DNA of 62,409 nt from Terriglobia bacterium (lineage in GTDB: Bacteria; Acidobacteriota; Terriglobia; JAJPHL01). The DNA lies in contig JAJPHL010000018.1 of assembly GCA_021325275.1 (NCBI GenBank), positions 1 through 62,409 of the forward strand. Direction: 5' to 3'. Under the pieces are notes generated by a model that was not told the origin of the DNA, did no database searches, and worked only from the letters and a program-made list of their open reading frames with translations. How positions within the stretch are numbered: position 1 is the first letter of the stretch; the number at the start of each line of letters is the position of its first letter. A program made the translations under genes and the position numbers. Below, piece by piece: positions 42,431-62,403 of this stretch.

Positions 42431-44278
42431 TCATTCCAGGACGCACTCGACTGTTGCGCCTTGCTTGGGAAGACTGGCGCGTATTGTCTTCGACTTGTCG
42501 CCGCTCTTGATTTCGATTTCGTAATCGCCTAGGAAACCGTGGGTTGTGAAAGCACCCGACGCCGCAGTCTTCCCATCCGCATTCGTCCACCATCGCTTGA
42601 AGACGAGGTCTTGGTACACTTCACCGTTCGGCTTCAGCGACCAGTCGCGCCGGAACATCGCGCCCCTCGGTTTCCAATGGGCGCCCTCCCAGAAGCCCCA
42701 CATCAGGAACGCCTTCACGGAAGGCTGGCTGAAAGCGGCGGTCATAAAGTCGCGAGTGTAATCGCGCTGCGTGGCTTCATCGGAAGTATCGATGTCGAAT
42801 TCGGTGATTTCCAATTCCTTGCCGAACGCCGCAAAACGATCGAACCGTTTCATCAGTTCGTCGATCGGCGTGACGCGCGCGGGGAAATGGGATTGCAGCC
42901 CGATTCCGTCGACAGGCGCTCGCTCGTCGATCAGGTACTGAATGGTCGCGGCGTAGTCGTCCTGGTGCGCCTTGTCCTCGCCTTCGAGGATGTTGAAGTC
43001 GTTGATGTACAGCTTCGCTGCCGGATCGCCGGCGCGCGCCGCGTTGAACCAATCCACCATGGCGTGGCGGCCGAGAATATCCATGAAATCGTGATTGGTG
43101 AACGTTTCGTTGATCACGTCCCAGTCGACGAGCCGTCCACGGAACGCGGCTGTCGTCTCGGCGATGTGGTCGGTAATGACCTTAGCCAGTGCGGCGGGGT
43201 CGCCCTTGGCGTCCTGCGCGTCTTTCACGTTTGTGTTGTTCCAAGACGGCCACACCAAGTTGTGACCGCGGACATTCAGCCCGCTCTCTCGCAGCCAGTC
43301 CACGGCGGCCAGCGTCGATGGTCGAGATTCCACGCGGGACCACTGCGGCCATTTCATTTCGTTTTCCATCACCGCGAAATTGAATAGCCGAACGATCTCC
43401 TGTTTGTATTTCGCCAGATTCTCCGCGCTCAGTCGCTGGCTCGAAAGGGCGGTCGCGTTGACCGCCGTGCCGAAGAGAAACGCGTGTTTGCGCATCCGGA
43501 CCGCCACCTGCGCTCCCCGAACCGGCCGGCCGGCTTTGTCTTTCACGATGACGGTGAGATCGCCTTTGCGAATCTTCTCGATCCGCGCTTCGGCGGCATT
43601 GCGCCAGGCGGCGTTCGGCTCGTCGCCCTGGTATCCGAGCTTGGTGAACGGCAGGTCGGCGACTTTCTTGTCCGTTCCGTAATCGATGAGCTCGATACCG
43701 CCGATCTCTACGATCTGCTCTCGCATTCCGAGCGTGAAGAAAACTTCGGCCTCTCCCTTTTCATAAGCCCGCGCCAGTGCGAAGGGGAATTGCACCTTTT
43801 TCCATGACGCGCCGGCGATGGCCGCGGCATTCAGCGCCGGGCCGAAGAACCCTCCTCTTCCACGTCCCGGTCCGGGCGCGCCGGTGGCTCCTGCTGCCTG
43901 CGGTGGCGGTCCGCCACCGCCTACCAGCGTCGTGCGGAATCCTGCGTCGAGCGTGGCTTCTCGTGCCGCGCCGGATCGCATCCAAAAAGAAATCATCAGG
44001 ACGTCACCGCTGGCCGTCGCGGCTGCCGTCGGTGCGGAGATCTGCACGTCGGTGGACCGTTGCGGTTTTGGGCTCACTTCAATGCGAAGGGCGCTCGAGA
44101 ACGGCTGGCCTCTTACAGCCACCGAGGACATCTTTGCAAACTCCCCGGCAGCGCTGCTCAACGTAAATGCGGACGCGGAGTCCGCCGGCAGAAGTGTCGT
44201 TGCTCCCGTTTGGGCATGTGCCGCGCAGGTGATGGCAGCGAATCCGGCGCTCAGGATGGCAGTTCGTAATCGATTCAT
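42431..44278 (-). CDS. GH10 endo-1,4-beta-xylanase with N-terminal binding-type domain
   Basis: Hydrolyses the xylan backbone. The 615-residue protein has a signal peptide (1-22), an N-terminal beta-sandwich like carbohydrate-binding modules (about 25-205) interrupted by a Gly/Pro/Arg-rich stretch at 120-146, then the GH10 TIM barrel (about 230-580). Catalytic acid/base Glu391 is in DWDVINETF and nucleophile Glu493 in EITEFDID. RGHNLVWPSW and FAVMENEMKW are also typical. Start ATG overlaps the stop of the preceding small gene (ATGA). GH51 follows after 10 bp. Confidence 0.95.
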   Translation of the reverse strand: MNRLRTAILSAGFAAITCAAHAQTGATTLLPADSASAFTLSSAAGEFAKMSSVAVRGQPFSSALRIEVSPKPQRSTDVQISAPTAAATASGDVLMISFWMRSGAAREATLDAGFRTTLVGGGGPPPQAAGATGAPGPGRGRGGFFGPALNAAAIAGASWKKVQFPFALARAYEKGEAEVFFTLGMREQIVEIGGIELIDYGTDKKVADLPFTKLGYQGDEPNAAWRNAAEARIEKIRKGDLTVIVKDKAGRPVRGAQVAVRMRKHAFLFGTAVNATALSSQRLSAENLAKYKQEIVRLFNFAVMENEMKWPQWSRVESRPSTLAAVDWLRESGLNVRGHNLVWPSWNNTNVKDAQDAKGDPAALAKVITDHIAETTAAFRGRLVDWDVINETFTNHDFMDILGRHAMVDWFNAARAGDPAAKLYINDFNILEGEDKAHQDDYAATIQYLIDERAPVDGIGLQSHFPARVTPIDELMKRFDRFAAFGKELEITEFDIDTSDEATQRDYTRDFMTAAFSQPSVKAFLMWGFWEGAHWKPRGAMFRRDWSLKPNGEVYQDLVFKRWWTNADGKTAASGAFTTHGFLGDYEIEIKSGDKSKTIRASLPKQGATVECVLE

Positions 44279-44835
44279 GAGATGGGTGTGAAACGGAGTT
44301 CATCCGCCGCGAGAAATTCGCCTTCTCTCGGACCGGAGAACTCGATATATGCGATGCGCGCGGCGTTTACTGTCAGCGCAAAGATGGGCACGGGATCACT
44401 TGGCGCTTTCCGCGCGGGAGCGGATGCGAGACTGGCGCGGTCCACTAACTTGCCGTCTTGGTCGAATGCCTCAAGCACAGCCGGCACTCCGGTCGAACCC
44501 CACAGGGAGACTGTGACGGAACGAACGGGCGTGGGAAACGTTGCTCGCACGGGAATCGGCTCGGTGGCCATCGCGCAGAGAATGCCTTTCCGTCCCGTTG
44601 AAAGATGCGTGAAAAACATCAACAGGCCCTTGGCCTTGGATTGCCGCGGCTCATGCGCGAGGCGGAATGTGACTCCTTTTTCCACCCACTCCGGAAAGCG
44701 ATTTGCCTTGTCACCCTCGGAAAATGCAACGCCCTTCGCAAAATCGACCACCACCTGTTCCGCAGCCGCCGCGCCTGTCGTCATTGCAAAAAACGCCACG
44801 AAGGCGGCCAATTTGGTGATCGTGCGCCGGCTCAT
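44275..44835 (-). CDS. Exported beta-sandwich protein of unknown function
   Basis: A 186-residue protein with signal peptide (about 1-25, ending GAAAA). The rest looks all-beta: [50 protein letters not shown] and [22 protein letters not shown]. This pattern resembles PEP-CTERM-type or carbohydrate-binding beta-sandwiches. It overlaps both neighbours by 4 bp (ATGA), between the DUF1552 gene and the xylanase gene, so it belongs to the operon. A binding role is a guess. Confidence 0.75.
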
Positions 44836-46136
44836 GATTTCGTTATTTCCAAACCGGACATCGTGCCGGTAGACGAAGCGAATCTGTCTGTTTCGATTCC
44901 CACACGTTGCAGCATGGAAACGAAAAGATTCGGCAGCGGGTAGTTCTGCGCGCGGTCGAAGGCCAAGTGTCCGGCGTGGTGGAAACCGCCGCCGGCGAAA
45001 ATCGTTGGCATATTGGTGGTGGAGTGCGCATTGGCGTCGCCGAGATTTGAGCCGTAAAGGATCATCGTTCGGTCCAACAAGGTGTCGCCATTTTCCTGCA
45101 CGCTCTTTAGGCCCTTGAACAGATCCGCCAACAAGCGCATGTGCCACGTGTCGATGATGCGAAGCTGCGCCAGCTTCGCCTCCGATTTTCCGTGATGCGA
45201 AAGATTGTGGTAGCCGTCGCTGAGCGTCGCGCCGGCAATCTCGACGACGGGCGTGCTGACGCTGTCGAGCATGAGCGTCACGGCGCGCGTGGAATCCGTC
45301 TCAAAGGCCAGCCGCACCAGGCTATACATCGCGGCGACCTTCGCCATGTACTGCGCGGGATTCGCCGGGTCCACCGGCTCGGGCTGGTTCACCACCGGTT
45401 TCGGTTTGCGCTCCCAGCCCTTGGATGCTTGCAGGCGTCCTTCCAAATCGCGCACGCTGGTGAAGTATTGGTCGAGCCTGGCGCGATCGCTGCTTCCAAC
45501 GCTACGCTCCAAGTCCCGTACTTGGTCGGATACCGCGTCGAGAATCGAACATCCCGTATCGAGATCGGCGATTTTTGCTTCCACTTCCATGGGACTGCCT
45601 TGGATAAACATCTGACGAAAGACCGCGGCCGCGCTTTGCTCGGGCGGAATCGCCACGCCGTTGCCTGTCCACGACAGCGAACGCGCGCCGGTGTTTACGG
45701 CAAGGGTGAGCGAAGGGAAACGCGTCTGATTGCCGATGCGCTCGGCGATGTATTGATCGAGAGAAATAGTATTTCGGAAAGAACCGCTGGCCGGATGCGG
45801 CGCTGCCGTCAAGAAGCTGACATCGGATGGATGACCGCCATCCACGTTGGGATGCGAGACCCCCGACAACACGGTGAAGTCCTTCCGATAATCCTGAAGA
45901 ACCTTCAGGTAGTTCGATGGCGTGTAATCGCGTCCGGCATCGGCCGGGAAAAACTCGCCCGGAAGCAGACCAAGATTATTGCAGATGCCGAACATGCGGC
46001 GCGGCACGGCCGCGGCCTGCGCCTGCGCCGCGGACGGCGCCATCGCGTTGAGCATCGGCAGCGAAAGGCCTACGCCAATTCCGCGAAGCAGCGCGCGCCG
46101 CGAAATGTAGGTTCGGGTCGGTCCGTTGGATTTCAA
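44832..46136 (-). CDS. DUF1552 domain exported protein
   Basis: A 434-residue protein with a twin-arginine-like N-terminus ([18 protein letters not shown], about 12-29). The DUF1552 domain occupies the rest, with [53 protein letters not shown] and [19 protein letters not shown]. The metal-rich His/Asp pattern resembles the alkaline-phosphatase/sulfatase-like fold found in the related DUF1501 family. These proteins almost always pair with a DUF1592 cytochrome-type protein, here the gene 22 bp upstream. Their chemistry is unknown. Confidence 0.9.
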
Positions 46137-46158
46137 GATACGCCTCGTTTCAGGTTCA

Positions 46159-48924
46159 TCATCTGCATTGGAAAAGCTCGCTCTCTACGATTCCATGCAC
46201 CATGTCACGGACGCCGTACTCGGAACGTTTCGTCTTTTGGAGGATTTCCTCCACATTGCGGCGGTCGCTAAAACCGATGGGCGCTCCGGTCGCGTAAGTG
46301 ATCAACTGACTTGCGAGGTTCCGCGCCACCGTTTCCGTATCATGATCGAGCAGTTGTTGCTTGAACTCGCGGATGTCCTTGAATGTCCGGCCGTCCAAGA
46401 ATGTCCCAGCGGTATCGACAGGAAGTCCATAACGGAAAGCGAAAGGTTGACCCGAAAGACCGATGCCCGGCTCGGGCTTCGAGCCTTCGGCAAATGCACG
46501 ATAACGGTCGCGCCACCCACCCATGACGTCAAAGCTCTCAAGCGCAAAACCTGGCGGATCGATCTTCCGGTGGCACGACGCACAAGTGGGGTCCGCCCGA
46601 TGCTTGTCTAGTTGCTGCCGGATCGTGACCGCCCCACGGATGTCCGGCTCGATCGCCGGAACTCCCGGCGGCGGAGCGGTGCGGAAGCCCAGAATGCGTT
46701 CCATGATCCAAACTCCGCGAAGGACCGGCGAGGTCGTTGTGCCGTTGGCCGTGACTTTCAGTATGCTGGCCTCCGTTAGCAGTCCTCCGCGGACCGAGTC
46801 TTTCGAGAGCGTCACCTTCCGCATCTTCGCTCCCGTTACTCCCGAAACGCCGTAGTGCCTTGCCAGACGTTCGTTCAGAAAAGTGAAATCGGAATCGATG
46901 ATGTTACGGGCTGGAAGATTCCGGTCGAACAATTCCCTTACGAACAATCGCGTCTCCTCAACGGCAGCGAGTTTCAGCGGATCGTCAAGTTCGTAGTCGT
47001 TGTAGAGTGTCGTCGACGGAGAAGTATCGTCGATCTTCCGCAGATCGAGCCAGTAGTCGGTGAAAGCGTCGATAAACCGGCGCGACTTCGGATCGTTGAG
47101 CAGCCGGTCGGTCTGGGCCTTCAAAACATCGGGATTGTGCAATTGGCCCGCGGCGGCGAGCGAGCGCAGTTCGGAATCGGGTTCCGAATTCCACAGGAAA
47201 AGCGCCAGCCGCGTTGCGAGCGAGTAATCATCGAGCCTGCCGGGCGCTTCTTGCACATAGAGCCAGCCAGGCGAAGTGAGGACGGCGGTATAGGTGGAAA
47301 GCAGAGATTTCGTGAAGCCGTGTCCGAGCGTAAACTCTTTTTGAAAGAGATCCAGAAATCGCTTCACATGCGCTTCTTCTACCGGACGTCGATAAGCGCG
47401 CGCGACGAAGGCGCGCAATAGACGCTCCGCGTCCTCTTGCGGATGCTCGCTGACCACTTCCACAGGGACATCCTGCATGCGTGGACCGAATCGTCCGCGC
47501 CCGGGACCGGCGGGTGTCGCGCTCGGTGGGGCCGGTAACTGGACCGCGACGCCGCCCGTCGCGCCATTTTCGAGGCGGCGCAACGGAAGGTCGCCGAACA
47601 GAAGCCGGTAACCTGAGTCACTTTCCGAATTCAACATGTTTGGATCGGCAAGAGGTCCTTCGACTTCGATCCACTGGAACGCGACGCCGGGCATTCCGTC
47701 AGGACCGGCCAGCGGATTGATGTACTGCTCTTCGCTGCCATTCACCCGCGTGCGGAATAGGCGCATGGCATCGGTCTGGATTACCTCCGATGGTTTGAGT
47801 AGAACTTCCACTTCGTTCACGGTGGGCTCGGGCGTGAAATCGAATTCAGCAACAGGACGGGATTGCCCGGAGCTCTGCGCGTAAACTCCAATGGGCTCGT
47901 TGCGCTGTCCCGGCCAGACTTCGTCGCTGTTGGGACGATGGTATGTCGGCGCGTAGAGGTAGGGCGCCTTCTCGGCGCCGAAGCCTTCATAATTCCAGTG
48001 GTCAACGCCCCCGCCGCTGACCTGGATCGAATATCCCTTCACGCGAATCTTGTACCGGCCCGCGGCAGGGACACGAAAGCTGGTCCAACTGAAACCACCC
48101 GCGTCCGAGAAGATGCTCGATACGCGGCCCACTGCCTCGCGCTCTTTCGTTTCCGGACTGGATAGCGGACTGCGGCCGGCGCGGACATCCGGCTGCGCGT
48201 GCGAATCGAGCACGGGAAAGTTGAGACGATCGGTCCGGGTATTTCCTTCGCGCGGCTTGAAGTTGCGAAGCGTCGGTTCGTCGCGCGCATAGATGCGAGT
48301 GATGGTCGTCGGAGGCCGGACGAGTTTTGCGGCCAGCACTTCGCGCATGGCGTAATCGGCTGAGCTCAAGTAGCGCGAAAGTTGCACATGCGAAACATCC
48401 AAGGCCGATCCGATCTTGTTGAAGCGATAGGACTCGCCATCCTGCGGAAGCTTGTCCTTGAGGGATACCCACGGAACATGCAGAAGGTCGCGGATGGAAT
48501 TCTCGTATTCGTACGCGTTCAAACGGCGCAGGCCGGCGCGTCCGCGTTCGCCTGCGGCCTTTTTCTCCCATGACGTGAGCGCGGCATCCAGACCGTTGAC
48601 GAATTGCGTAAGCGACGCGGCGGCGGGCCGTGGCATCCCCGCAGGCGGCATTTCACCGGCGGCCACACGATCATGGACCTTCACCCAAATCGCGAAGTTC
48701 TCCGGATCGGATGGTTCGAAGCTCAGCTTTGTAAGATCAAGGCGACCAGGACCGGTCGGCGAGTTATGGCAGACCGCGCAGTTCTGACGCACAAAGGTAT
48801 CGGCGCCGGTGAAGGGTGGAACGGGCGTCGTGTCGGCCGAGAAGCAGGCGCCTGTTAGCAGAACCACGGACGCGATCGCGAGCCACATCGTGCGGACTAT
48901 GCGTATTTTTCGAGAATCCGCCAC
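46159..48924 (-). CDS. DUF1592 multidomain cytochrome-type protein
   Basis: A 921-residue exported protein of the Planctomycetes/Acidobacteria type. A signal sequence (hydrophobic 14-29) is followed by a haem c motif CAVCH (49-53). Then come the usual DUF1587, DUF1595, DUF1592, DUF1588 and DUF1585 modules, for example [73 protein letters not shown] (a second CxxCH) and [15 protein letters not shown] Gly/Pro/Arg insertion ([11 protein letters not shown]) occurs near residue 473. Start is GTG at 48924 or ATG at 48888. With the DUF1552 partner it may carry out a redox step on sugars or phenolics; function unproven. Confidence 0.9.
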
Positions 48925-49071: not shown

Positions 49072-50133
49072 TTAGCGGCAATCCTTTCCGGAGCACAGAC
49101 GTTTGGCGAAGAAAGGAATGACGTAGTTCTGAAAGCGGTCCGCTACGGCGCTGGTATGGGTACCAGAGTAAATCTCAAATGTATTCGCGACTCCGCTGTT
49201 ATCGAGAATTTCATGCAGCTTGCCGGCATCCACGCGCAGACCGTCCTGATCGCCGACGTCGATGGCGATACCGTTGTACATCTTCAGATTGCCGATGTAT
49301 TGATCCACAAAGGCCAGCGGTGCATTGGCGGCCCAGCGCGCGAGCACATCCGGCTGCGGTTGCCCGTCCTTCATGGGCCAATCGAAAAATAGCGGCGGCT
49401 TTTTCGGATTCGGCGACCAGGCGGCGGCGACCGCGAGTGTCGTGATGATGCCGGGAATCTTGCTGGCCTCCGCCGGCGATTTTGCGGCGGCAAGCGCCTC
49501 CTCGGCGGCGGGATTCGCGCGTCCTGCTCCACGCGCCGACATACAACAGGGACTCATGATGTACAAGCTTCCGAAAACATCCGGATGCTTCATGCCAATG
49601 CGGCTCGCGCCATATCCGCCCATGGAGTGTCCAACAAGTCCACGGCTCGATCGCTTCGGGATCGTGCGGTAGTGTGAATCCATGTACTCCACCACGTCGC
49701 GCGCGACATAGTTTTCGAAGTCGCCGGTGGTGATGGAACTGGAGTACATCGAACCGTTGTAGATTGTCTTCGAATCGGGGAGCACGACGATCATTTCTTG
49801 CGCGCCCTGCGCGAAGGCTCCTTCGATGGTCTGCGGCACGTGGATTTCTTCCTTCCACTGCGCGGCGCCGATGAAAAATCCGTGCAGCGCGTAGACAACC
49901 GGATAGCGCCGCGTCGGTTCCTTGGCGTAACTCGGCGGTAAGAATACAAATGCCTCGCGGTCGACTTCGTCGCCTTCGAGGTTGCCTTCGAGTGCCTTGC
50001 CATGAATCTTGATTTGCTCGACCGTGGCGGGCTTCGCTCCGGGCACAACGGGAGGAACGTTCGTTTTCACTTGTCCGTGAACGAAAAACGCGAGCGCGAA
50101 TGACATCGGAATCAGGCGGAACGATCTATTCAT
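49072..50133 (-). CDS. CE1-like esterase (putative feruloyl/acyl esterase), secreted
   Basis: A 353-residue alpha/beta hydrolase of the esterase D/CE1 type (PF00756). Signal peptide 1-20. Core: RYPVVYALHGFFIGAAQW (oxyanion region), nucleophile elbow GLVGHSMGGYGASRI (Ser), acid VGDQDGLRVD, and a C-terminal His in SGTHTSAV. Likely removes feruloyl or acetyl groups from arabinoxylan. A clear TGAGGAGA ribosome-binding site precedes ATG. It follows another CE1-like gene by 30 bp; the three CE1-like proteins in the island are divergent paralogues. Confidence 0.9.
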   Translation of the reverse strand: MNRSFRLIPMSFALAFFVHGQVKTNVPPVVPGAKPATVEQIKIHGKALEGNLEGDEVDREAFVFLPPSYAKEPTRRYPVVYALHGFFIGAAQWKEEIHVPQTIEGAFAQGAQEMIVVLPDSKTIYNGSMYSSSITTGDFENYVARDVVEYMDSHYRTIPKRSSRGLVGHSMGGYGASRIGMKHPDVFGSLYIMSPCCMSARGAGRANPAAEEALAAAKSPAEASKIPGIITTLAVAAAWSPNPKKPPLFFDWPMKDGQPQPDVLARWAANAPLAFVDQYIGNLKMYNGIAIDVGDQDGLRVDAGKLHEILDNSGVANTFEIYSGTHTSAVADRFQNYVIPFFAKRLCSGKDCR

Positions 50134-50163
50134 CTCATCTCCTCAGCGTGATAACTGGGTTGT

Positions 50164-52798
<2,635 letters not shown>

Positions 52799-52802
<4 letters not shown>

Positions 52803-53530
52803 GGATGAACCTCGCTAAGGCTGACGGTGATTCCCTTGATCGGCTTGTCGTTCGCATCGAGGAAGCGCGCGCAAAAGTCGGTTGCGCCGCCGCCATTGAC
52901 GATCGCGGCGCGCACAATATTCGGACCCTTCTTGAGTGTAAGCCGCTTTGAGACGCCATCGTCGATCACGGTCTGGCGGTCGCCGTAAATGCCAATCACT
53001 TCCTGGCCGTTCACCCACCACACCGATGCGGCGTTCGAACCAATCGCCAGCCGGACGTTGCGCATCTCCTGCGGCGCGTTGACCAAGGCGACCGCCCAGA
53101 ACAAAACGTCGCTGGTCTTTTTTCCGTAAGAACGCGCGAAGTGATACAGATTCACGTTGTAGAGCTTCGTGTCCACGGCGTGCCAAGTGAGTTCCGTATC
53201 GCCGTTCTTCACTTTGTCGCCGTCATGGGGAATGATCGTGAACTGGCCGGGGAAGTACTCCTTCTTGACGGCGGATTGAACGGCGTTGTCGGTGAGTCCG
53301 ATCGTGCCGATCGGTTCAAGCAACAACCAACGCTGTAAAAAACCATCGGCGTCGGGCGCTTTTTCCGCCGACGCCGGATGTGTCAGCGTCGCCGCGGGTA
53401 CAGCGGCCGTCGGAACGGACTGAGTGGAAGCGACGGGCATCGCCAGAAGCACGGCGATCATGCATGGCGCAATCGAACGCAAGGCCGGTTGAATGCAGCG
53501 ATTCGCGGAAGGTCGTTTGATCATGGGCAT
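52799..53530 (-). CDS. Exported jelly-roll-type protein associated with the esterases
   Basis: A 243-residue protein with a signal sequence (about 20-40) and a beta-rich body typical of a galactose-binding-like jelly roll: FLQRWLLLEPIGTIGL, LFWAVALVNAPQEMRNVRLA, GSNAASVWWVNGQEVIGIYG and GPNIVRAAIVNGGGATDFCA. Such domains often sit at the end of acetylxylan esterases and GH2 enzymes. Here it is a separate gene between the arabinanase and the acetylxylan esterase, overlapping both (TAATG and ATGA). The likely role is polysaccharide binding or an accessory to the esterase. Confidence 0.78.
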
Positions 53531-55026
53531 TAGGGAATCTTCAACAGCCAGCACTGTTTTTCGCTCTTGGGATCAAATTTTGCGAGCGTGGCAAAACTGC
53601 TGCCGACGGCCGAAAGGGCCAATTGTTCCCTGGAATTTGGAATCGACTTCGGCATGATGCGCCAACTTGCGTCACCGAGCTGATCGAGCCGCCAGAGTTG
53701 TTCCGGCGCTCCCGTGAATGCGGGCAGAGCCACGAGTTCCGCTTCGGGCGTTGCGGCAAGCGCGCGATCCGTGCCGGCGATCGTGATCTTGAAGTACGGC
53801 GATCCAGGATATCCGCCGGCATTCAATACGGGCGTGATCGTCCATTTTTGCTGCGCCTGCAACATGTAGTTGCCCATGCGAACGTCGATATTGCCGCTGG
53901 GCCATTTCGTTGAAACCTGCGCCACATCCTGCGCGGGAATGGGAGAGCCGGTTCCGGCGAAGATGCCGCCGCCCGTCCCGCTTCCAGACCCACCTGGAGC
54001 AGGCGGCGCGCCCGCGCCGGGAGTTCCACCAGGCGGCGGACCTCGACGCACAGGCCGCCCGCCGACCGGGAAGCCTTCCACGGCCAATTCCAGCGACGTG
54101 CCGGTTCGCAGGGACTCAATTTCGTATGTACCTTCCTTTGCGTTCTCACCGGGAAGGGGCCACCCGTCTTTCCACTGCAACGGCCGGATATCGAGGACAC
54201 TCGCGCCCCCGCGATCCAAGTCGGCTTCGTAATGCAGCGAGAACTTCTGGACGCCGTCACCAAGATCGAGCAAACCGAAATGTCCGGGACCGATCGCGCG
54301 TCCCGCGGACCCCACGAAGAGCTTGCCGCCGCCCTGGATCATGTAAATGCCCATGTTGTCGAGGAACGGTCCGATGACTTGCTTGGCGCGTCCTACACGA
54401 ATGTTGTATCCCGAGTCGGCGCCGCGGCAGCAACTGCCGTGCGTCACCAGCAGGTAATACCAGCCGTCGTGATAGATCATGTCCGACGCTTCGCTGTTGA
54501 TCGCGATATTGCGAGGCGTGTCTTTCGGATTGAGCCGCCGGCCGGTTTTTGGATCCAGCTCAACAAGTCGGATGTATCCGAAGTACGATCCATAGGTCAG
54601 CCAAAGACGCTTCGTTGTTGGATCCAGCAGCACGCCGGGATCGATGGCGTTTGCATCTTCCACGCCGTCCGATGACGCGACCACGCCGCCTTCTTCCCAC
54701 TTGTAGTCCGGCGAATCCGGATCGAGCGTCTTGTTCGTCAGCAGGCTAACGTCGGCTTTCGTGGGTCCACTGTTGGCGGCGATGTAGAGAAAGTAGCGGT
54801 CGCCGAGATGGATCACATCAGGCGCAAGACCGCGGCGAGGCAGCGCGGTGCCGCGTCGCCACGTCCATCCGTCGTCGGAGACCAGCGACGATCCGCCGGT
54901 GCCGTAGGTGTAGTATTTGCCGTTGCACTGAATGATCGTCGATGGATCGTGAATGCCGACCGTGCCATCGAGCGCAAATAACGACGTGACAAGAATGACG
55001 GCAGCGAAAACACGAACCGACTTCAT
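53530..55026 (-). CDS. GH43 arabinan/arabinoxylan hydrolase
   Basis: A 498-residue enzyme with signal peptide (1-16) and a five-bladed beta-propeller like endo-1,5-alpha-L-arabinanases. Catalytic Asp in GIHDPSTII, second Asp in DANAIDPGVLLD, acid Glu in SEASDMIYHDGWYYL. A Gly/Pro-rich linker (about residues 320-355) leads to a C-terminal beta-trefoil-like region (about 380-498). It cleaves arabinan or arabinose side chains; exact specificity is open. The ATG at 55026 follows GGGGTGTG. A 35-bp gap separates it from the upstream esterase. Confidence 0.9.
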   Translation of the reverse strand: MKSVRVFAAVILVTSLFALDGTVGIHDPSTIIQCNGKYYTYGTGGSSLVSDDGWTWRRGTALPRRGLAPDVIHLGDRYFLYIAANSGPTKADVSLLTNKTLDPDSPDYKWEEGGVVASSDGVEDANAIDPGVLLDPTTKRLWLTYGSYFGYIRLVELDPKTGRRLNPKDTPRNIAINSEASDMIYHDGWYYLLVTHGSCCRGADSGYNIRVGRAKQVIGPFLDNMGIYMIQGGGKLFVGSAGRAIGPGHFGLLDLGDGVQKFSLHYEADLDRGGASVLDIRPLQWKDGWPLPGENAKEGTYEIESLRTGTSLELAVEGFPVGGRPVRRGPPPGGTPGAGAPPAPGGSGSGTGGGIFAGTGSPIPAQDVAQVSTKWPSGNIDVRMGNYMLQAQQKWTITPVLNAGGYPGSPYFKITIAGTDRALAATPEAELVALPAFTGAPEQLWRLDQLGDASWRIMPKSIPNSREQLALSAVGSSFATLAKFDPKSEKQCWLLKIP

Positions 55027-55061
55027 GCTGACACACCCCATATCTTCCAAACTACCACTCG

Positions 55062-56306
55062 TTACTTGAAGAGTCTCGGAGCAAAATCGTTGAGACAGCG
55101 GCGCCACGTGAGCCATTCATGCGCCGTTCCCGGTGATTCAAAGTAGACGTTGTGAATTCCGGCTGCCGTCAACGCATCGCTGAAATTTTTTGTTCCGGGG
55201 CCTTCCACCGAACCGATGCCCAGGAATACCAGCTTCATCTTCTTATTGAACGCATCGGCGTCGGCAAATACGCCGTTGCTTGAAGTCTTGGGATCGAAGC
55301 CGCCGCGACCGCCGCTGCTCCCGCTGAAGCCGCCGAGATAGGCGAATTTATCCATGTTCGCCAGGACGGTCGTGAAAGACTGCATGCCGCCCATGGAGAG
55401 TCCAGCCATGGCGCGATTCTCACGGCCCGGCAGGACGCGATATGTCTTCTCCACCATCGGAATCAAATCGGCCAGCATCATTTCAGTGAAAGTCGCGCCG
55501 AAGTTGGGTCCAAACCCGCCGCGTCCGGCGTTGGCCGGGGCCGCGCCGCCGCGAGCCGATCCTGCAGAAGGAGGCGCGCCAATCGGCGGCGGAACATCGG
55601 CCAGTGATTTGCGCGCGATAATGCTGCGTGCCGAATACAGCGAGGCGTCTTCGCCCGGCTTGGCCGTATTCAGGTTGTCCATCACGACAATCATCGGTTT
55701 CGCCTTCTTCTCGGCGATCAGATTGTCGAGAATCAAATCCATGCGACCTTGCGTGTGCCAGCCCTGTTCGTTCTCGCCCCATCCGTGCAGAAGATAGAGA
55801 ACCGGATAGCGTCCGCGCGAGTTGGTTTCGTAGTCGGGCGGGGTATAGACATAGGAGCGCCGCCACTTGCCCGTAACACTCGAGAAATACCAGCGCTGGC
55901 TGACTTGCCCGTGGGGAACATCCTTAAAGGAGTAGTAAGCTGCATCGGCTTCGGGTTCGGGGATCTCAATCCCGCTGTTGTCCCACCCTGATCCGAAAAA
56001 AGTGCGCGTGGCCGGATCGGCCAGCACCATACCGTCTACCACGATCGTGTAGTAGTGAAATCCGACGACTTGCGGCGGAATGGTCGCCGTCCACAGGCCA
56101 TCGGCGCCCTTGGTCATGTCGTGCCGCCCGCCGAGACTCACCTGGACCTTCTGCGCGTCCGGCGCCGATACCCGGAACGACACACGACGGTCCGGGTAGA
56201 CGCAAGGATACGGCGCTCCCGGAATATTCAGGGAGGATGGTTTGCATTCATCTCCCTGTGCCCAACAAAATCCGCAGCACAGCAGCGCCAACGCTGCAAT
56301 CTTCAT
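55062..56306 (-). CDS. CE1-like feruloyl-esterase-type protein
   Basis: A 414-residue secreted esterase. Signal peptide 1-16 (LALLCCGFCWAQ), E-set domain (about 40-125: RRVSFRVSAPDAQKVQVSLG, GFHYYTIVVDG), then the CE1 hydrolase. The oxyanion region is [17 protein letters not shown], the nucleophile is in MAGLSMGGMQSFT, and the His is in GTAHEWLTWRRCL. A Gly/Ala/Pro insertion with NAGRGGFGPNFG at about 255-275 splits the domain. First gene after the TonB-type receptor (19-bp gap). Probably frees ferulate from arabinoxylan. Confidence 0.91.
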   Translation of the reverse strand: MKIAALALLCCGFCWAQGDECKPSSLNIPGAPYPCVYPDRRVSFRVSAPDAQKVQVSLGGRHDMTKGADGLWTATIPPQVVGFHYYTIVVDGMVLADPATRTFFGSGWDNSGIEIPEPEADAAYYSFKDVPHGQVSQRWYFSSVTGKWRRSYVYTPPDYETNSRGRYPVLYLLHGWGENEQGWHTQGRMDLILDNLIAEKKAKPMIVVMDNLNTAKPGEDASLYSARSIIARKSLADVPPPIGAPPSAGSARGGAAPANAGRGGFGPNFGATFTEMMLADLIPMVEKTYRVLPGRENRAMAGLSMGGMQSFTTVLANMDKFAYLGGFSGSSGGRGGFDPKTSSNGVFADADAFNKKMKLVFLGIGSVEGPGTKNFSDALTAAGIHNVYFESPGTAHEWLTWRRCLNDFAPRLFK

Positions 56307-56325: not shown

Positions 56326-59300
56326 TCAGAATGAGTACTTCAACCCCAATTGGATCTGTCGCATGGCGGTCTGTGTGGCCGTCACAACGCCGAAGTTTAC
56401 GTGCGACGCGGTGGCCGGCTGTCCGGGCTGCGCTCCTCCTGAAAGAATGTTGAGATTCGGCATCTGCCAATTCGGATGATTCGGCAGATTAAACGCCTCG
56501 AAACGGAACTCGACGGTGTGGCTGTCTTTGTACGGCATTCGGAACTGCTTGTGCACTTCCATATTGACGCCGATAATGCCGGGGCCAACGACGGCGTTGC
56601 GTCCGACGTTACCAAACTGTCCCGGCGGCGCTTCCGTGAAGGCCGCGAGATTCCAGTAGCGCGAGGGTGTTGGATTGTCGAGGTACGGGCTCGCGCCGGT
56701 GGCATTCGGACGATCGTAGCCGCCCGCCCCGGTCGATGCATTGTCCACACCACCGATGGTCAACGTTCCCGGCATTCCGCTTTGCAGCGTCACAACTCCA
56801 CCGACTTGCCATCCGCCGAAAACATTATTCGCAACCGGATTGTTGATCGGCAGCAATTTGCCGCTTCCTACGGGCAACTCGTAGAGCACCGACGTCGCCA
56901 CGCGATGTCGCGTATCGAACGATGAAAGCCCGCGCTCGCACGCCAGACAGTAGCTATTCTGCGGATAAAGTGTGTCGAATCCCTGATTCCGGATTCCACT
57001 CGTCGTATCGATCGACTTGGCCCATGTGTATGACGCGATCACGCTCAAACCCTGACGGAAGCGGCGCGTCGCTTTCAAGCTGAGCGCGTTGTAGCTGCCG
57101 TTCCCTCCGTCATGCACGTACTGAATGTTACTGAAGCCCGCCCACGGCAGCCGGGAGGCGACATTGCCGACCGTGCCCGGAATCGCCTGGTTGACATCTT
57201 GGAATCCTTGCAGGTGGCGACTGGCTCCGCCGAGATATCCCGCTTCGAGGGCCCAGTCGGAACCCAGTTGACGCTGCACGTTCACCAAATATTGCATCGC
57301 ATACGATGTCCGATGATCCGGGTCCATCGCATACGCGAACGGCGACGGGACGTTTGCCGTAGTGCCGCTGCCGCCGGGAATCGCATTGCTGTAGAACAGG
57401 TTCGGCGTGCCCGTGTTGGATGTGAGCGTAACGCGCCCGGCGATGTTGCGCGCCAGATCGAAGTACGCATTGCCGATCTCCTGGTTGTAGAAGACTCCCC
57501 AGCCGAGGCGCACGACGGTCTTTGAGTCCGGTGCATAGGCGACGCCGATACGCGGCGCGAAATCACGGTACGAAGTATTCATCAACTGATCAGGCAGCGC
57601 GCCGCCATTGCACGTGGCCGAAACGGTGGTCCAACGAATGTTGATCGCCGGAGGTCCTGCGTAGGGGTCTGTGCAGTTGCCTTGCCGCAGCATCACCGGA
57701 GTATTGGGAGCATTCGCCGCGGCGTAGATGTGCGGAACCGAGACGGTGAATAAATTGTTGGCCGTGTCGGTCCACGGCGGAGTCAGTTCGTAGCGAAGTC
57801 CCAGGCTGAGGGTGAGTTTCGGCGTGACCTTCCAGGTATCGTCGACGAAGGCAGCTTCGGCGTTGCGTTGGAACTGTGCGTTTGCCAGGGCCACCGCCAC
57901 GGTCGATTGATAGATGTCGCCGAGCAGGAATTCGGCAAAGGCGTCACCGCCGGTCTTGGTAGCGCTCTGCGTGGCATTTGGCTGGAACGCGAATTGTCCG
58001 CGCGAGAATTGGTTGCCGATCTGATTGAAGTTTTGACGGCTGTATTCAAAGCCGAAGCGTACGGCGTGCTTACCGCGAACCCACGAAACGTTATCCACCA
58101 GTTGCAGCGTGTTGTCGTCGATGAAGTAGGGACCGTCCTGAGTGTCGCCGATGGCCGTGAAGCCATCGCCGGCGAAGGAAGCAAACGGCACTCCCCAAGA
58201 AACCGGAGCGCCCGGTTGGAGATTCGGGATGCCCAGCGTGCTGACGCTGTCCACATCAAAGGCTGAGTAGGTACCGGTGGAATTACTCAATCGCGTGTAG
58301 CCGAAGCGCGCTTCGTTCAGCAGCGAAGGCGTCAGCGCGCGGGTGTTGCTGCCCAGATATTGCTCGTAGTTGGTGATGATCTTGCCGCCGGTGATGCTGA
58401 TGCCAGTGTTGGACTGATTCTCGTCACCCCAGCTGTAACGCCCGGTCCAACTCGACTTGGGCGATTCGATGAAGTCCATGCGCAACGTGAAGGCGTCGCG
58501 ATTGTTCGGGAAGGAGTTGACCTGCGTGTAATTGCTGGAGAGTCCCGGAAGATTCGACGACGTGTAATAGTTCAGGAACTTCTTGGAGATCGGATCGATC
58601 CGTCCCGCCGGGATGAGGTTGCCTGAAAACGGAAGCTTGGTGTTGGGGTCGTAGATCGTGGTGCCCAAGGCGCTGAAGTCGCCGTTGAACATGGCGGCCG
58701 TAGGAACCGAGTATGTGCTGAGAGAGTTCTGGCGCTGCACCTTCCATTCGTCGTTCGCCATGAAGAAGAGTTTGTTGCGCCCATCGACGATTTTCGGAAT
58801 CCGGACCGGCCCGTCGAGCTCAAACCCATAGTCGTTCCATTTGAACGGCGAACTAGCCGGATGCACGGATGTAAAAGAGTACGGTACGGCGTCGAGCTTG
58901 TTGTTGCGGATGAACTCGAACATCGTCCCGTGATAGGCGTTGCCGCCGGACTTTGTCACCACGTTGATCTGCGTGGACTGATGTCCGAACTCGGCCGGGT
59001 AGATACCGGATTGAACCTTGAACTCCTGGATCGCGTCGATGGAAGGCAGCACGACGTAGGTCGAGAAGTCGGGGTCGGTATTGGATACTCCGTCGAGAGT
59101 GAAATAGTCGAACATGATCCGGTTTCCGCCGGTCGAGATCGACTGCGACGCGCGATCTCCGCCTTGCCGGCTGCCGGCCTGTCCGGAGCTGGCTGATGCG
59201 GTATTGGTATTGGCCGCCAGGGCGACGAGTCCCAGATAGTTGCGTCCGTTGAGCGGCAGTTCGGTTACGCCCTTGTTGTCGATGACCGTACCGAGCGTGG

Positions 59301-59697
59301 AGTTTTCTGCTTGCAGCAATTGGGCGGATGCGGAGACCTCGATCGCCTCGCTGACTTGTCCCACCTGCAGCGTGAAATCCACGCGCACCGTCTGCTGAAC
59401 TTGGACTTGAATGCCGGAGCTGGCCGACTTGAAGGATGCTCGCTCCACTTTCACCGTATACTGCCCCGGGGCCACCGCGGGAAAGGTGTAGTCGCCCGAT
59501 TCAGTGGACATTGTCTCCCGAACGGCGCTTGTGGCAACATTGGTCAATGTGATTCTTGCGCCGGGAACGGCGGCTTCGCTGGCATCGGCAATATGCCCGG
59601 TAACTTCTCCGAATGTTTGTGCCAAGGCCGCGGTCGCAAGTCCGACGGTTACCACTACAAGCAACAAAACACGCCTCAGTTGACGTCGCATCGTCAT
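56326..59697 (-). CDS. TonB-dependent-receptor-like outer membrane protein with carboxypeptidase-regulatory domain
   Basis: A 1123-residue outer membrane beta-barrel. Signal peptide 1-26, carboxypeptidase-regulatory-like (CarboxypepD_reg) domain about 30-112 (GEVTGHIADASEAAVPGARI, GDYTFPAVAPGQYTVKVE), plug domain (ELPLNGRNYLGLVALA, EFKVQSGIYPAEFGHQSTQINVVTKSG), and a long barrel ending in aromatic Phe (LGLKYSF). This acidobacterial type replaces SusC in sugar uptake; no SusD partner is present. It heads the hydrolase operon and is divergent from the malectin regulator. Likely imports arabinoxylo-oligosaccharides. Confidence 0.93.
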   Translation of the reverse strand: MTMRRQLRRVLLLVVVTVGLATAALAQTFGEVTGHIADASEAAVPGARITLTNVATSAVRETMSTESGDYTFPAVAPGQYTVKVERASFKSASSGIQVQVQQTVRVDFTLQVGQVSEAIEVSASAQLLQAENSTLGTVIDNKGVTELPLNGRNYLGLVALAANTNTASASSGQAGSRQGGDRASQSISTGGNRIMFDYFTLDGVSNTDPDFSTYVVLPSIDAIQEFKVQSGIYPAEFGHQSTQINVVTKSGGNAYHGTMFEFIRNNKLDAVPYSFTSVHPASSPFKWNDYGFELDGPVRIPKIVDGRNKLFFMANDEWKVQRQNSLSTYSVPTAAMFNGDFSALGTTIYDPNTKLPFSGNLIPAGRIDPISKKFLNYYTSSNLPGLSSNYTQVNSFPNNRDAFTLRMDFIESPKSSWTGRYSWGDENQSNTGISITGGKIITNYEQYLGSNTRALTPSLLNEARFGYTRLSNSTGTYSAFDVDSVSTLGIPNLQPGAPVSWGVPFASFAGDGFTAIGDTQDGPYFIDDNTLQLVDNVSWVRGKHAVRFGFEYSRQNFNQIGNQFSRGQFAFQPNATQSATKTGGDAFAEFLLGDIYQSTVAVALANAQFQRNAEAAFVDDTWKVTPKLTLSLGLRYELTPPWTDTANNLFTVSVPHIYAAANAPNTPVMLRQGNCTDPYAGPPAINIRWTTVSATCNGGALPDQLMNTSYRDFAPRIGVAYAPDSKTVVRLGWGVFYNQEIGNAYFDLARNIAGRVTLTSNTGTPNLFYSNAIPGGSGTTANVPSPFAYAMDPDHRTSYAMQYLVNVQRQLGSDWALEAGYLGGASRHLQGFQDVNQAIPGTVGNVASRLPWAGFSNIQYVHDGGNGSYNALSLKATRRFRQGLSVIASYTWAKSIDTTSGIRNQGFDTLYPQNSYCLACERGLSSFDTRHRVATSVLYELPVGSGKLLPINNPVANNVFGGWQVGGVVTLQSGMPGTLTIGGVDNASTGAGGYDRPNATGASPYLDNPTPSRYWNLAAFTEAPPGQFGNVGRNAVVGPGIIGVNMEVHKQFRMPYKDSHTVEFRFEAFNLPNHPNWQMPNLNILSGGAQPGQPATASHVNFGVVTATQTAMRQIQLGLKYSF

Positions 59698-59857
59698 CTC
59701 CTTTGTGTTCGCAGATCCTGGCGTTGATGGAACCAGACCCCATCAGAATCCCCAAGCTCCTGTGGGCAGAACTTTCGACCAGAACAGGCGTTCCAGTGCT
59801 TGTACGCTAGAACACTTCTATTGACGACGACTACGTTTGGTACGGTGAAGTCTCCCG

Positions 59858-59897
59858 CGGTTAACGGTTAGGTGCGAATTAACCTGTCCGTAAACCG
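59858..59897. promoter_or_regulatory. 40-bp imperfect palindrome between receptor and regulator
   Basis: Left arm CGGTTAACGGTTAGGT (59858-59873) and right arm ACCTGTCCGTAAACCG (59882-59897) match at 13 of 16 positions when one is reversed, around an 8-base spacer. It lies 31 bp before the regulator ATG. A -10-like TATGAT (59904-59909) follows it, so a bound protein would cover the -35 region. The receptor start is 160 bp away on the other side. Operator role is inferred. Confidence 0.55.
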
Positions 59898-59928
59898 TTG
59901 TGATATGATCGCGTAAATCGTTCGGCGT

Positions 59929-61542
59929 ATGGGTGATATCGGCAAAATCCCGACGATCGAGCTGCGCGACCAGTTGGTCCGAGCAGAGTTGAATCGTGTC
60001 CTGGAGAGCCAGGCGTTTCGCACCAGCAAACGATGCAGCGAGTTCCTCGGATACGTCGTCGATCAGACTCTGAACGGCCCCAGCGGCAACCTTAAAGAAC
60101 GCCTGATCGGTGTGGAGCTTTTTCAGCTTCCACCCGATTTCGATACCGGCCAACACACCATTGTCCGGGTGACGGCCAATGAGGTTCGAAAACGGCTGGC
60201 TCAACATTATGTTTCGGAGAATGGATCGCCGCACATTGTGACAATCCATCTCCCGCCCGGATCCTACAGCGCCGAGTTCCGCTGGGGGAGTCCGAAGGAT
60301 CGAGAGCACGCCGCGGAATCAGATGAAATGCCCGCGGCACTGGAGTCTTCTGAAGAGCTGCCCTCGCGTAAAGGTCCTGTGATCGTGGGCGCGCAACCCT
60401 CCAACGCCGCGAGACTTGGCTGGATGTCCCGAAGTGTTGTCGCCGCGGCGACAGTCGTTCTGATCTCTGCCGCCGGTTACGCCGTCTGGCACTGGTCCGG
60501 CGGCAAACCCGTCTCGGGAGCCTCGCCGGCGCTGACCGTGTCCGCCGCGCCTGCACTACCCGGCAAGGGGGACCTGCGCATGATCATGGGTCTCAAAGAT
60601 CCGTACCTGGACCGCAGTTCGCGAAGCTGGTTGCCCGATCAATTCTTCACCGGCGGCTCGATCATCGTGCGACCTTCAGAGCGCGTGCTTCGGACGCTTG
60701 ATCCCGACATGTACAGGCATTCACGAGTGGGAGAGTTTCAATACAACATTCCACTCGATAAAGGCGCCTACGAAATGCATCTCCATTTTGCTGAAACCGG
60801 GCTTTCCGATTTCATCAGCGCGGAGTCCAGCGGTGAAGGACAGCGCCTTTTCCGGATTTCCGCCAACGACAAACGAATCGTTGACGCCCTCGATGTTGTG
60901 GCTGATGCCGCCGGCGCTAACATATCGGATGAACGTGTGTTCCGCGATATTTCTCCAGCGGAGGATGGGGTTCTGCACCTAAGCCTGAGCGCGATTCGCG
61001 GCTCACCGATGTTGAGCGCGATCGAGTTGCTTCCCGTCAAACCTGGTTCGGTGCGTCCCGTGAGAATCCGCTCCGGCTGGACTTCTTCGTGGCAGGATTC
61101 CGCCGGCCAGCAATGGCGCGCCGACTCTTATTTCATGGGCGGAAACGCGCTGGTGCGCGCGAAGAATCCCGCACAGCAAGAAACCTCGATTGCGCCCGAC
61201 ATCGCGCTCTACGGCAGCGAACGTTGGGGACATTTTTCCTACGCGATCCCGGTCGCCGAGGGACGTTACAAGGTGAAGCTGAAGTTCGTTGAAGGCCACT
61301 ACGGCCCTCGCAACACTGGCGTTGGAGGAGTCGGCAGCCGCCTATTCGATGTTTACTGCAACGGAGTCGCCTTGCTGCGGAAGTTCGATATCCTGAAGGA
61401 AGCCGGCGGCGAGGGACACCCGATCGACAAGATATTCACTGGAGTCGAACCTAACGCGCAAGGCAAGATCATCCTCACTTTCGTGCCGATTAAGGGCATG
61501 GCCTGCGTGAACGGCATCGAAGTTTTGGAAGACGCGCGCTAG
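59929..61542 (+). CDS. Membrane one-component regulator with two malectin sugar-binding domains
   Basis: A 537-residue protein in three parts. Residues 1-120 match the cytoplasmic domain found at the front of many acidobacterial regulators (SEFLGYVVDQTL, LKERLIGVELFQLPPDFD, IVRVTANEVRKRLAQHYV, IHLPPGSYSAEF), taken to be winged-helix DNA-binding. A single membrane helix spans about 168-187 (RSVVAAATVVLISAAGYAVW). The periplasmic part holds two malectin-type domains, about 210-375 and 378-535. Each has the pattern FFTGGSIIVRPS / YFMGGNALVRAK, then a sandwich (YEMHLHFAE / YKVKLKFVE) and a final strand (AIELLPV / GIEVLED). Malectin domains bind di- and oligosaccharides. It is divergent from the receptor, so it probably reads out extracellular sugars and controls the locus; that is inference. 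Confidence 0.82.
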   Translation: MGDIGKIPTIELRDQLVRAELNRVLESQAFRTSKRCSEFLGYVVDQTLNGPSGNLKERLIGVELFQLPPDFDTGQHTIVRVTANEVRKRLAQHYVSENGSPHIVTIHLPPGSYSAEFRWGSPKDREHAAESDEMPAALESSEELPSRKGPVIVGAQPSNAARLGWMSRSVVAAATVVLISAAGYAVWHWSGGKPVSGASPALTVSAAPALPGKGDLRMIMGLKDPYLDRSSRSWLPDQFFTGGSIIVRPSERVLRTLDPDMYRHSRVGEFQYNIPLDKGAYEMHLHFAETGLSDFISAESSGEGQRLFRISANDKRIVDALDVVADAAGANISDERVFRDISPAEDGVLHLSLSAIRGSPMLSAIELLPVKPGSVRPVRIRSGWTSSWQDSAGQQWRADSYFMGGNALVRAKNPAQQETSIAPDIALYGSERWGHFSYAIPVAEGRYKVKLKFVEGHYGPRNTGVGGVGSRLFDVYCNGVALLRKFDILKEAGGEGHPIDKIFTGVEPNAQGKIILTFVPIKGMACVNGIEVLEDAR

Positions 61543-61779: not shown

Positions 61780-62403
61780 CTAATTGCGCGCCGCCGTATT
61801 TTTTCGTTTCGAAATCAGCGCTCCCAGACCCGTCGCCAGTAGCAACAACGAGGAGGGTTCGGGAGTTAGCGCCACTGTCGCTTCGCCGTTGGGGGAGAAG
61901 TTTTGCACCGTGGGATTGCCGTTGGTATCCAAGTCAATCTCTACCAACTGGCCGATCGAGCCGCCCTGGCCAATCAATGGGTCGAAGCTCGAATCATCCA
62001 AGGTCAGAAGGAACGAATCGCCACTCTGAGCGTTGCCGGAGATGATCGGGATATCCAGGTCGACGAATACGTCGAAAAAACTTCCGAATGTGAATCCGTC
62101 GGTATACTCATTCTGCACATCCGTGTTGTTGATCCCCACGGTTCCCGGCAACGACCCGCTGACGTCGCCCACATCGCTGAGAGGCGTTCCCAGTGTGCCG
62201 TCGCTGGTGAAGCCGGACAATGTGGCACTGGCGGGATCCACCGGTGCTGCGCCGGGGTTGAACTGGAAGTCCAAATAGCCCACGGTGCCGCTGATACTCG
62301 TCGTATCGACGTGGATCTCGTAGATGGAATCGGCATGCGCCTGGGCGATCCCCAGCAGCGCGAACATTGTGCCGAACGCCGCCAACAATAAACTCTTGCG
62401 CAC
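61780..62403 (-). CDS. PEP-CTERM exosortase-sorted protein (NF038129-like)
   Basis: A protein of at least 207 residues. Signal peptide 1-24 (LLLAAFGTMFALLGIAQAHA), a beta-rich body beginning IYEIHVDTTSISGTVGYLDF, and a C-terminal sorting signal with PEP motif TPEPSS, a hydrophobic helix (LLLLATGLGALI) and basic end SKRKNTAARN. It would be anchored and processed by an exosortase, often linked to extracellular polysaccharide. The GTG at 62403 is the only start visible; the frame is open to the window edge 6 bases on, so the true start may lie outside. It lies beyond the island boundary. Confidence 0.88.
   Translation of the reverse strand: MRKSLLLAAFGTMFALLGIAQAHADSIYEIHVDTTSISGTVGYLDFQFNPGAAPVDPASATLSGFTSDGTLGTPLSDVGDVSGSLPGTVGINNTDVQNEYTDGFTFGSFFDVFVDLDIPIISGNAQSGDSFLLTLDDSSFDPLIGQGGSIGQLVEIDLDTNGNPTVQNFSPNGEATVALTPEPSSLLLLATGLGALISKRKNTAARN

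Follow-up and report, generated by a model that had tools for sequence, protein, structure and literature searches.

The 537-aa product of an open reading frame at 59929-61542 (+) of the window (the whole 62,409-nt stretch of DNA analysed) is predicted to be a membrane one-component regulator, combining a divergent winged helix, one membrane helix and two malectin domains. Within a large family of proteins paired with TonB-dependent receptors it represents a single specialised member, a placement that goes beyond the preliminary description of this gene. The source is a soil bacterium of the Acidobacteriota, a phylum abundant in soil, with a genome of 6.86 Mb.

Architecture and distribution of the regulator

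The layout of the protein was resolved into three parts. The N-terminal cytoplasmic domain covers residues of about 14-118 (59968..60282, +), as delimited by hhalign and the family alignment, and hydropathy reveals a sole hydrophobic segment at residues of about 169-187 (60433..60489, +) between this domain and the malectin pair, so that the one membrane helix proposed earlier is borne out. The segment is flanked by two K/R residues on its N side and one on its C side, and across the regulator family the positive-inside K/R counts number 26 for the N-in orientation and 16 against, so that charge weakly favours a cytoplasmic N-domain and an extracytoplasmic C-domain. Hydropathy and family precedent would place the malectin domains on the periplasmic side. 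Pfam matched neither a histidine kinase or receiver domain nor a sigma or anti-sigma domain in the regulator protein. Directly after the regulator gene lies a gene for a putative PEP-CTERM surface protein (61780-62403, -), which scores slightly under the Pfam cut-off.

Full-length orthologues with the same architecture were identified in two public MAGs (L011, Bryobacteraceae, 66% identity; L012, 63%), and more distant full-length homologues occur in two further genomes, as two copies in G011 and one in G020. In addition, a scan of 297 Acidobacteriota genomes found double-malectin regulators in 7, this one and six further ones. The presence of full-length homologues across genomes therefore indicates a conserved architecture and not a chance arrangement, and the double-malectin regulator is, as judged from these sequences, rare but stable.

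A malectin pair with a predicted ligand site in the distal domain

The two malectin domains of the regulator are certain by sequence, since Pfam Malectin (PF11721, CBM57) matches at E 6.8e-34 and 117.6 bits against a cut-off of 23, in two separate stretches (60616-61023 and 61066-61437) that singly reach 71.4 and 51.5 bits. A profile search of the 6.86-Mb genome returned no malectin domain elsewhere. We delimited the membrane-proximal domain 1 at 60562..61038 (+) and the distal domain 2 at 61051..61533 (+). A Foldseek search with a weak full-length model placed FERONIA, with its tandem malectin ectodomain, at the top and malectin-bearing beta-glucuronidases of Bacteroides next, and this ranking was matched for the malectin part by phmmer, in which FERONIA is also the best sequence match.

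The ligand residues of Xenopus malectin are Y67, Y89, Y116, F117 and D186 (PMC7783096), and these were placed on the regulator by alignment, the equivalent of Y67 being assigned by eye. Y401, W433 and Y458 of domain 2 lie at or near known ligand positions, with W433 at Y89, H457/Y458 at Y116/F117 and Y401 at Y67 (by eye); the homologues carry Y, F or W here, and aromatics are kept in all six that were aligned. The aromatic ligand positions of domain 1 have been lost in the clade of this regulator, which has V/S/Q at Y89, G at Y116 and L at F117, and the D186 position is not conserved. Thus, of the double malectin with aromatic sugar sites that had been proposed, both PF11721 domains stood, while aromatic positions were found in the distal domain only. 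Since domain 2 keeps the aromatics that domain 1 has lost, the distal domain is predicted to be the likelier ligand site.

A divergent receptor operon with a xylanolytic gene set

Across an intergenic gap of 231 bp, the regulator gene is divergent from a gene for a TonB-dependent receptor (56326..59697, -) with a carboxypeptidase-regulatory domain and an OMP_b-brl_4 barrel. This gene is presumed to be a target of the regulator, together with those for a CE1-type putative esterase (55062..56306, -), whose counterpart adjoins the regulator in L011 and L012, and a GH43 protein with a ricin-B lectin domain (53530..55116, -). Further along the same strand are an acetyl xylan esterase family protein (AXE1; 51360..52802, -) and two further CE1-type esterases (50164-51363 and 49072-50133, within 49072..51363, -), and a GH10 xylanase (42431-44278, -) and an arabinofuranosidase-domain protein (40445-42325, -) probably belong to the same cluster. 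The adjacent hydrolase operon reported in the preliminary description is thereby confirmed and extended, and the partner operon looks xylanolytic, its gene set fitting a locus for acylated arabinoxylan as the likely substrate. Between the esterases and the GH10 gene, PSD/DUF1592-type and DUF1552 (HXXSHH) proteins are encoded at 44832-48924 (-), a pair known from Planctomycetes-like genomes, and a DUF1592-type gene is also present near the L011 orthologue.

At L012 the receptor is absent and the esterase is still divergent from the regulator, with a GH9 gene and another esterase gene downstream of it. Genes for GH43, GH10, arabinofuranosidase, CE1 and fucosidase proteins recur at other malectin-type loci, and at three of them (L053, L054 and L183) no clear carbohydrate-active neighbour was seen among the genes scanned. 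The neighbour genes point to a xylan-derived glycan as the probable signal. FERONIA, by comparison, binds peptides and pectin, and in an alternative reading the malectin pair likewise recognises a protein or cell-wall partner and not a free sugar; what the regulator monitors would then be the receptor, the envelope or some protein of the periplasm. We regard this alternative as unlikely: it draws on FERONIA being the best sequence and fold match although its malectin-like domains are without the aromatic sugar site (PMC7783096), on the aromatic positions lost from domain 1 and on the malectin-type loci without obvious carbohydrate-active neighbours, whereas the aromatics retained at the ligand positions of domain 2 in every aligned homologue and the xylan-type enzymes beside most malectin-type loci argue for sugar binding.

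An N-terminal domain with profile similarity to OmpR/PhoB winged helices

In hmmscan, no Pfam or NCBIfam model matches the N-terminal ~120 residues of the regulator, and PF00486, the CadC DNA-binding model, finds no match in the protein up to E 1. In an hhalign test, a profile of the N-domain family was compared with 19 PF00486 domains from the same genome, and the match to OmpR/PhoB winged helices reached E 4.4e-4 with 40 sequences and E 1e-4 with 62 relatives (score 29.1), the alignment being co-linear through the wing over 69 columns with an hhalign probability of 57%. Decoys scored lower, at 19.9 for the best of 100 column shuffles and 18.4 for the best of 27 real non-HTH segments from other families, and the comparisons with GntR and TetR gave 15.2 and 13.5. 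A TetR identity, for which a PDB profile search had returned a match at E 0.46 alone, was ruled out by the latter score. The earlier view of this region as DNA-binding-like is thus supported, within limits, not by any family model but by a co-linear OmpR-type profile match well above decoys.

The invariant positions of the domain include V74, R75 and R82 of the 120-aa stretch, and its motif IVRVxAxxLRxRL, after which come two paired strands that end in GxYxPxF, appears by eye to mirror the recognition helix and wing of OmpR-type proteins (VDVxIxxLRxKL ... IxTVRGxGYxF). The putative recognition helix and wing lie within 59968..60282 (+) and read TIVRVTANEVRKRLAQHY...VTIHLPPGSYSAEF. AlphaFold models built from three sequences gave a low-confidence pLDDT of 42 for the full protein and 51 for the N-domain, with helices followed by two strands as their secondary structure, in agreement with an OmpR-type order of helical core, recognition helix and C-terminal beta hairpin; they were set aside as proof of the fold, and the full-length Foldseek search was kept for the malectin part only. 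Because these three-sequence models are poor, we infer from the profile similarity that the N-domain is a divergent OmpR/PhoB-type winged helix that would bind DNA.

The N-domain family comprises 10 proteins in this genome and up to 19 in relatives, and it is present in 26 of the 199 genomes sampled from the phylum; viral contigs scanned for further relatives yielded none. A membrane helix follows the N-domain in 53 of 62 family sequences, and the regulator is the rare malectin version of this unnamed family. Outside the N-domain, three siblings (L047, L048 and L096) are matched by HilA/EilA and CadC models, their TPR regions being of the HilA/CadC type, and the N-domain therefore occupies the position of the winged helix in those regulators. 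Matches to the N-domain were also observed on plasmids of Rhizobium, Sinorhizobium, Azospirillum, Bosea and Granulicella, including plasmids outside the Acidobacteriota, and are mostly annotated as hypothetical or TPR proteins.

The failure of any HTH family model to reach threshold and the low-confidence fold leave some room for an N-domain that binds another regulator, such as a sigma factor, and not DNA, which would make the protein a transmembrane signalling subunit. This reading is quite improbable: the profile match singles out OmpR-type winged helices and stays co-linear through the wing, in TPR regulators of the HilA/CadC type the domain takes the place of the winged helix, and no gene for a partner sigma factor or regulator was noted next to the regulator gene of the window.

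Pairing of the family with TonB-dependent receptors

A TonB-dependent receptor gene lies divergently within less than 1 kb of 34 of the 62 family genes inspected, and within 1 kb in another orientation for 6 more, while none was found in the fetched surroundings of 12. This count is a lower bound because some fetched regions stop at contig ends. For comparison, when 20 regions of 17 kb were drawn at random from these genomes, 2 contained a receptor. Acidobacteriota encode dozens of TonB-dependent receptors per genome, with 46 or more in six of the seven genomes searched. Another regulator of this genome (L145; G000:C46:43877-44104, -) carries a classic PF00486 winged helix in a 662-aa open frame and is divergent from a receptor gene (C46:45052-47670, +); the pairing is therefore not confined to the new N-domain.

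In most receptor-paired family members the membrane helix is followed by an unnamed domain of ~245 aa for which no Pfam, NCBIfam or PDB relatives were found. The C-terminal ~245 aa of L043-L046, L055, L057, L058 and L060 form a shared extracytoplasmic domain with the pattern LVGAFNNxWTL ... DYAIVSRL ... GxGTQAAGEFLT ... PxVVATYFW.

Candidate operators upstream of the regulator and receptor genes

The 12-mer ACCGTACCAAAC (59835..59846, -, read towards the receptor) is common to the three orthologous loci, with exact copies in the window, L011 (twice) and L012. In L011 another receptor gene flanks the regulator on its opposite side, and the second copy precedes that gene, so that both receptor genes are preceded by the element. 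Its own genome contains one exact copy and eleven copies with one mismatch, the latter not above control. Three of these eleven are immediately upstream of TonB-dependent receptor-like genes (L131, G000:C56:3954-3965; L125, G000:C14:61438-61449; L127, G000:C36:12807-12818). As a general element of the intergenic regions between family and receptor genes ACCGTACCAAAC was rejected, being confined to the window, L011 and L012, and common k-mers over these intergenic regions showed no clear excess against shuffles.

Upstream of the regulator gene, GTTA-type repeats GGTTAACGGTTAGGTGCGAATTAACC (59859..59884, +) form a candidate autoregulatory site. Among malectin-type regulator genes, 5 of 13 have GTTAAC upstream, against 0 of 56 other family members (Fisher p 1e-4, the related sequences not being independent). 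An extended -10-like box, TGTGATATGAT (59899..59909, +), can be read by consensus about 20 bp before the start codon and recurs in L011 and L012. Both ACCGTACCAAAC and the GTTAAC repeats are candidate operators, although ACCGTACCAAAC could be a promoter element instead of the regulator's operator.

In a further alternative, the receptor operon and the regulator have no functional link despite their proximity and the regulator controls distant genes, as might be argued from the 12 of 62 family genes without a receptor in their fetched surroundings and from L012, which has none. That is very improbable, as the 34 divergent pairs at less than 1 kb are far above the receptor gene density, the L012 esterase remains beside the regulator even where the receptor is missing, and the shared ACCGTACCAAAC element lies between the regulator and its neighbour operon.

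Proposed mechanism and wider class

Taken together, we consider it probable that the protein is a type II CadC/ToxR-like one-component regulator, switched by a glycan through its malectin domains and controlling the receptor-hydrolase operon, with DNA and ligand binding as predictions. The intergenic region at 59.7-59.93 kb would be the DNA bound by the cytoplasmic winged helix, one helix would span the inner membrane and the malectin pair would reside in the periplasm. Gene pairing and the shared ACCGTACCAAAC element are indirect signs that the regulator may bind DNA while membrane-bound and control its neighbours. The divergent TonB-dependent receptor would import an oligosaccharide released from xylan or arabinoxylan, which would bind mainly to the distal malectin domain and alter the arrangement or dimerisation of the regulator. 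The altered regulator would then switch the receptor-esterase-GH43 operon, and probably its own gene as well, at the level of transcription, activation being the more likely direction.

To our knowledge, the regulation of acidobacterial TonB-dependent receptor operons has been little described. We lean, with somewhat less assurance, towards a broader reading in which the Acidobacteriota possess their own undescribed class of membrane one-component regulators. These would share a winged helix of divergent type, while the sensor could be exchanged (malectin pair, unnamed ~245-aa domain, TPR or propeller), and each would lie divergent to one TonB-dependent receptor operon. They would fill the role that in Bacteroidetes falls to hybrid two-component systems and ECF sigma factors, and the malectin version would sense plant-cell-wall glycans. 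If regulators and receptors do recur as divergent pairs in which the sensor varies, the substrate of each uptake system would become predictable. Neither the unmodelled DNA-binding domain nor the systematic receptor pairing was found described in the literature searched.

Comparison with known systems

The plan of winged helix, membrane helix and sensor is already known, and the version with a malectin sensor is apparently new. In agreement with the preliminary description, no bacterial regulator with a malectin sensor was found described in the open-access literature searched, and a 2023 survey of transmembrane transcription regulators does not mention malectin (PMC10269533). CadC/ToxR-like regulators (ToxR, TcpP, CadC) have the order of parts predicted here, from an N-terminal winged helix through a single membrane helix to a C-terminal extracytoplasmic sensor, and the direct route from signal to DNA, but the present N-domain misses PF00486, being related only at the level of distant profiles, and the sensor is a malectin pair; the earlier label of CadC-like is therefore apt for the working mode and not for the DNA-binding model. 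The HilA/EilA type, an OmpR-type winged helix with TPRs, is approached by the siblings with HilA-like TPRs after the N-domain, whereas in the malectin type a membrane helix and a sensor of beta-sandwich fold take the place of the TPRs.

The polysaccharide utilisation loci of Bacteroidetes have regulators (SusR, hybrid two-component systems, ECF sigma/anti-sigma pairs) that likewise adjoin hydrolases and a TonB-dependent receptor, and that sense the glycan taken up. The present regulator differs from them in lacking histidine kinase, receiver, sigma and anti-sigma domains alike, and its sensor and DNA-binding domain are unrelated to theirs. Among malectin proteins, the malectin-like receptor kinases FERONIA and ANXUR are the closest in plan, since in FERONIA a single membrane helix likewise bears an ectodomain of two malectin-type units. 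Glycoside hydrolases with malectin modules (CBM57) draw these from the same domain family as the regulator's sensor. Unlike these kinases and hydrolases, the present protein is bacterial and its output is DNA-binding-like, and the malectin version would, if this reading is true, be the bacterial equivalent of the malectin receptor kinases of plants, with a DNA-binding domain where these have the kinase.
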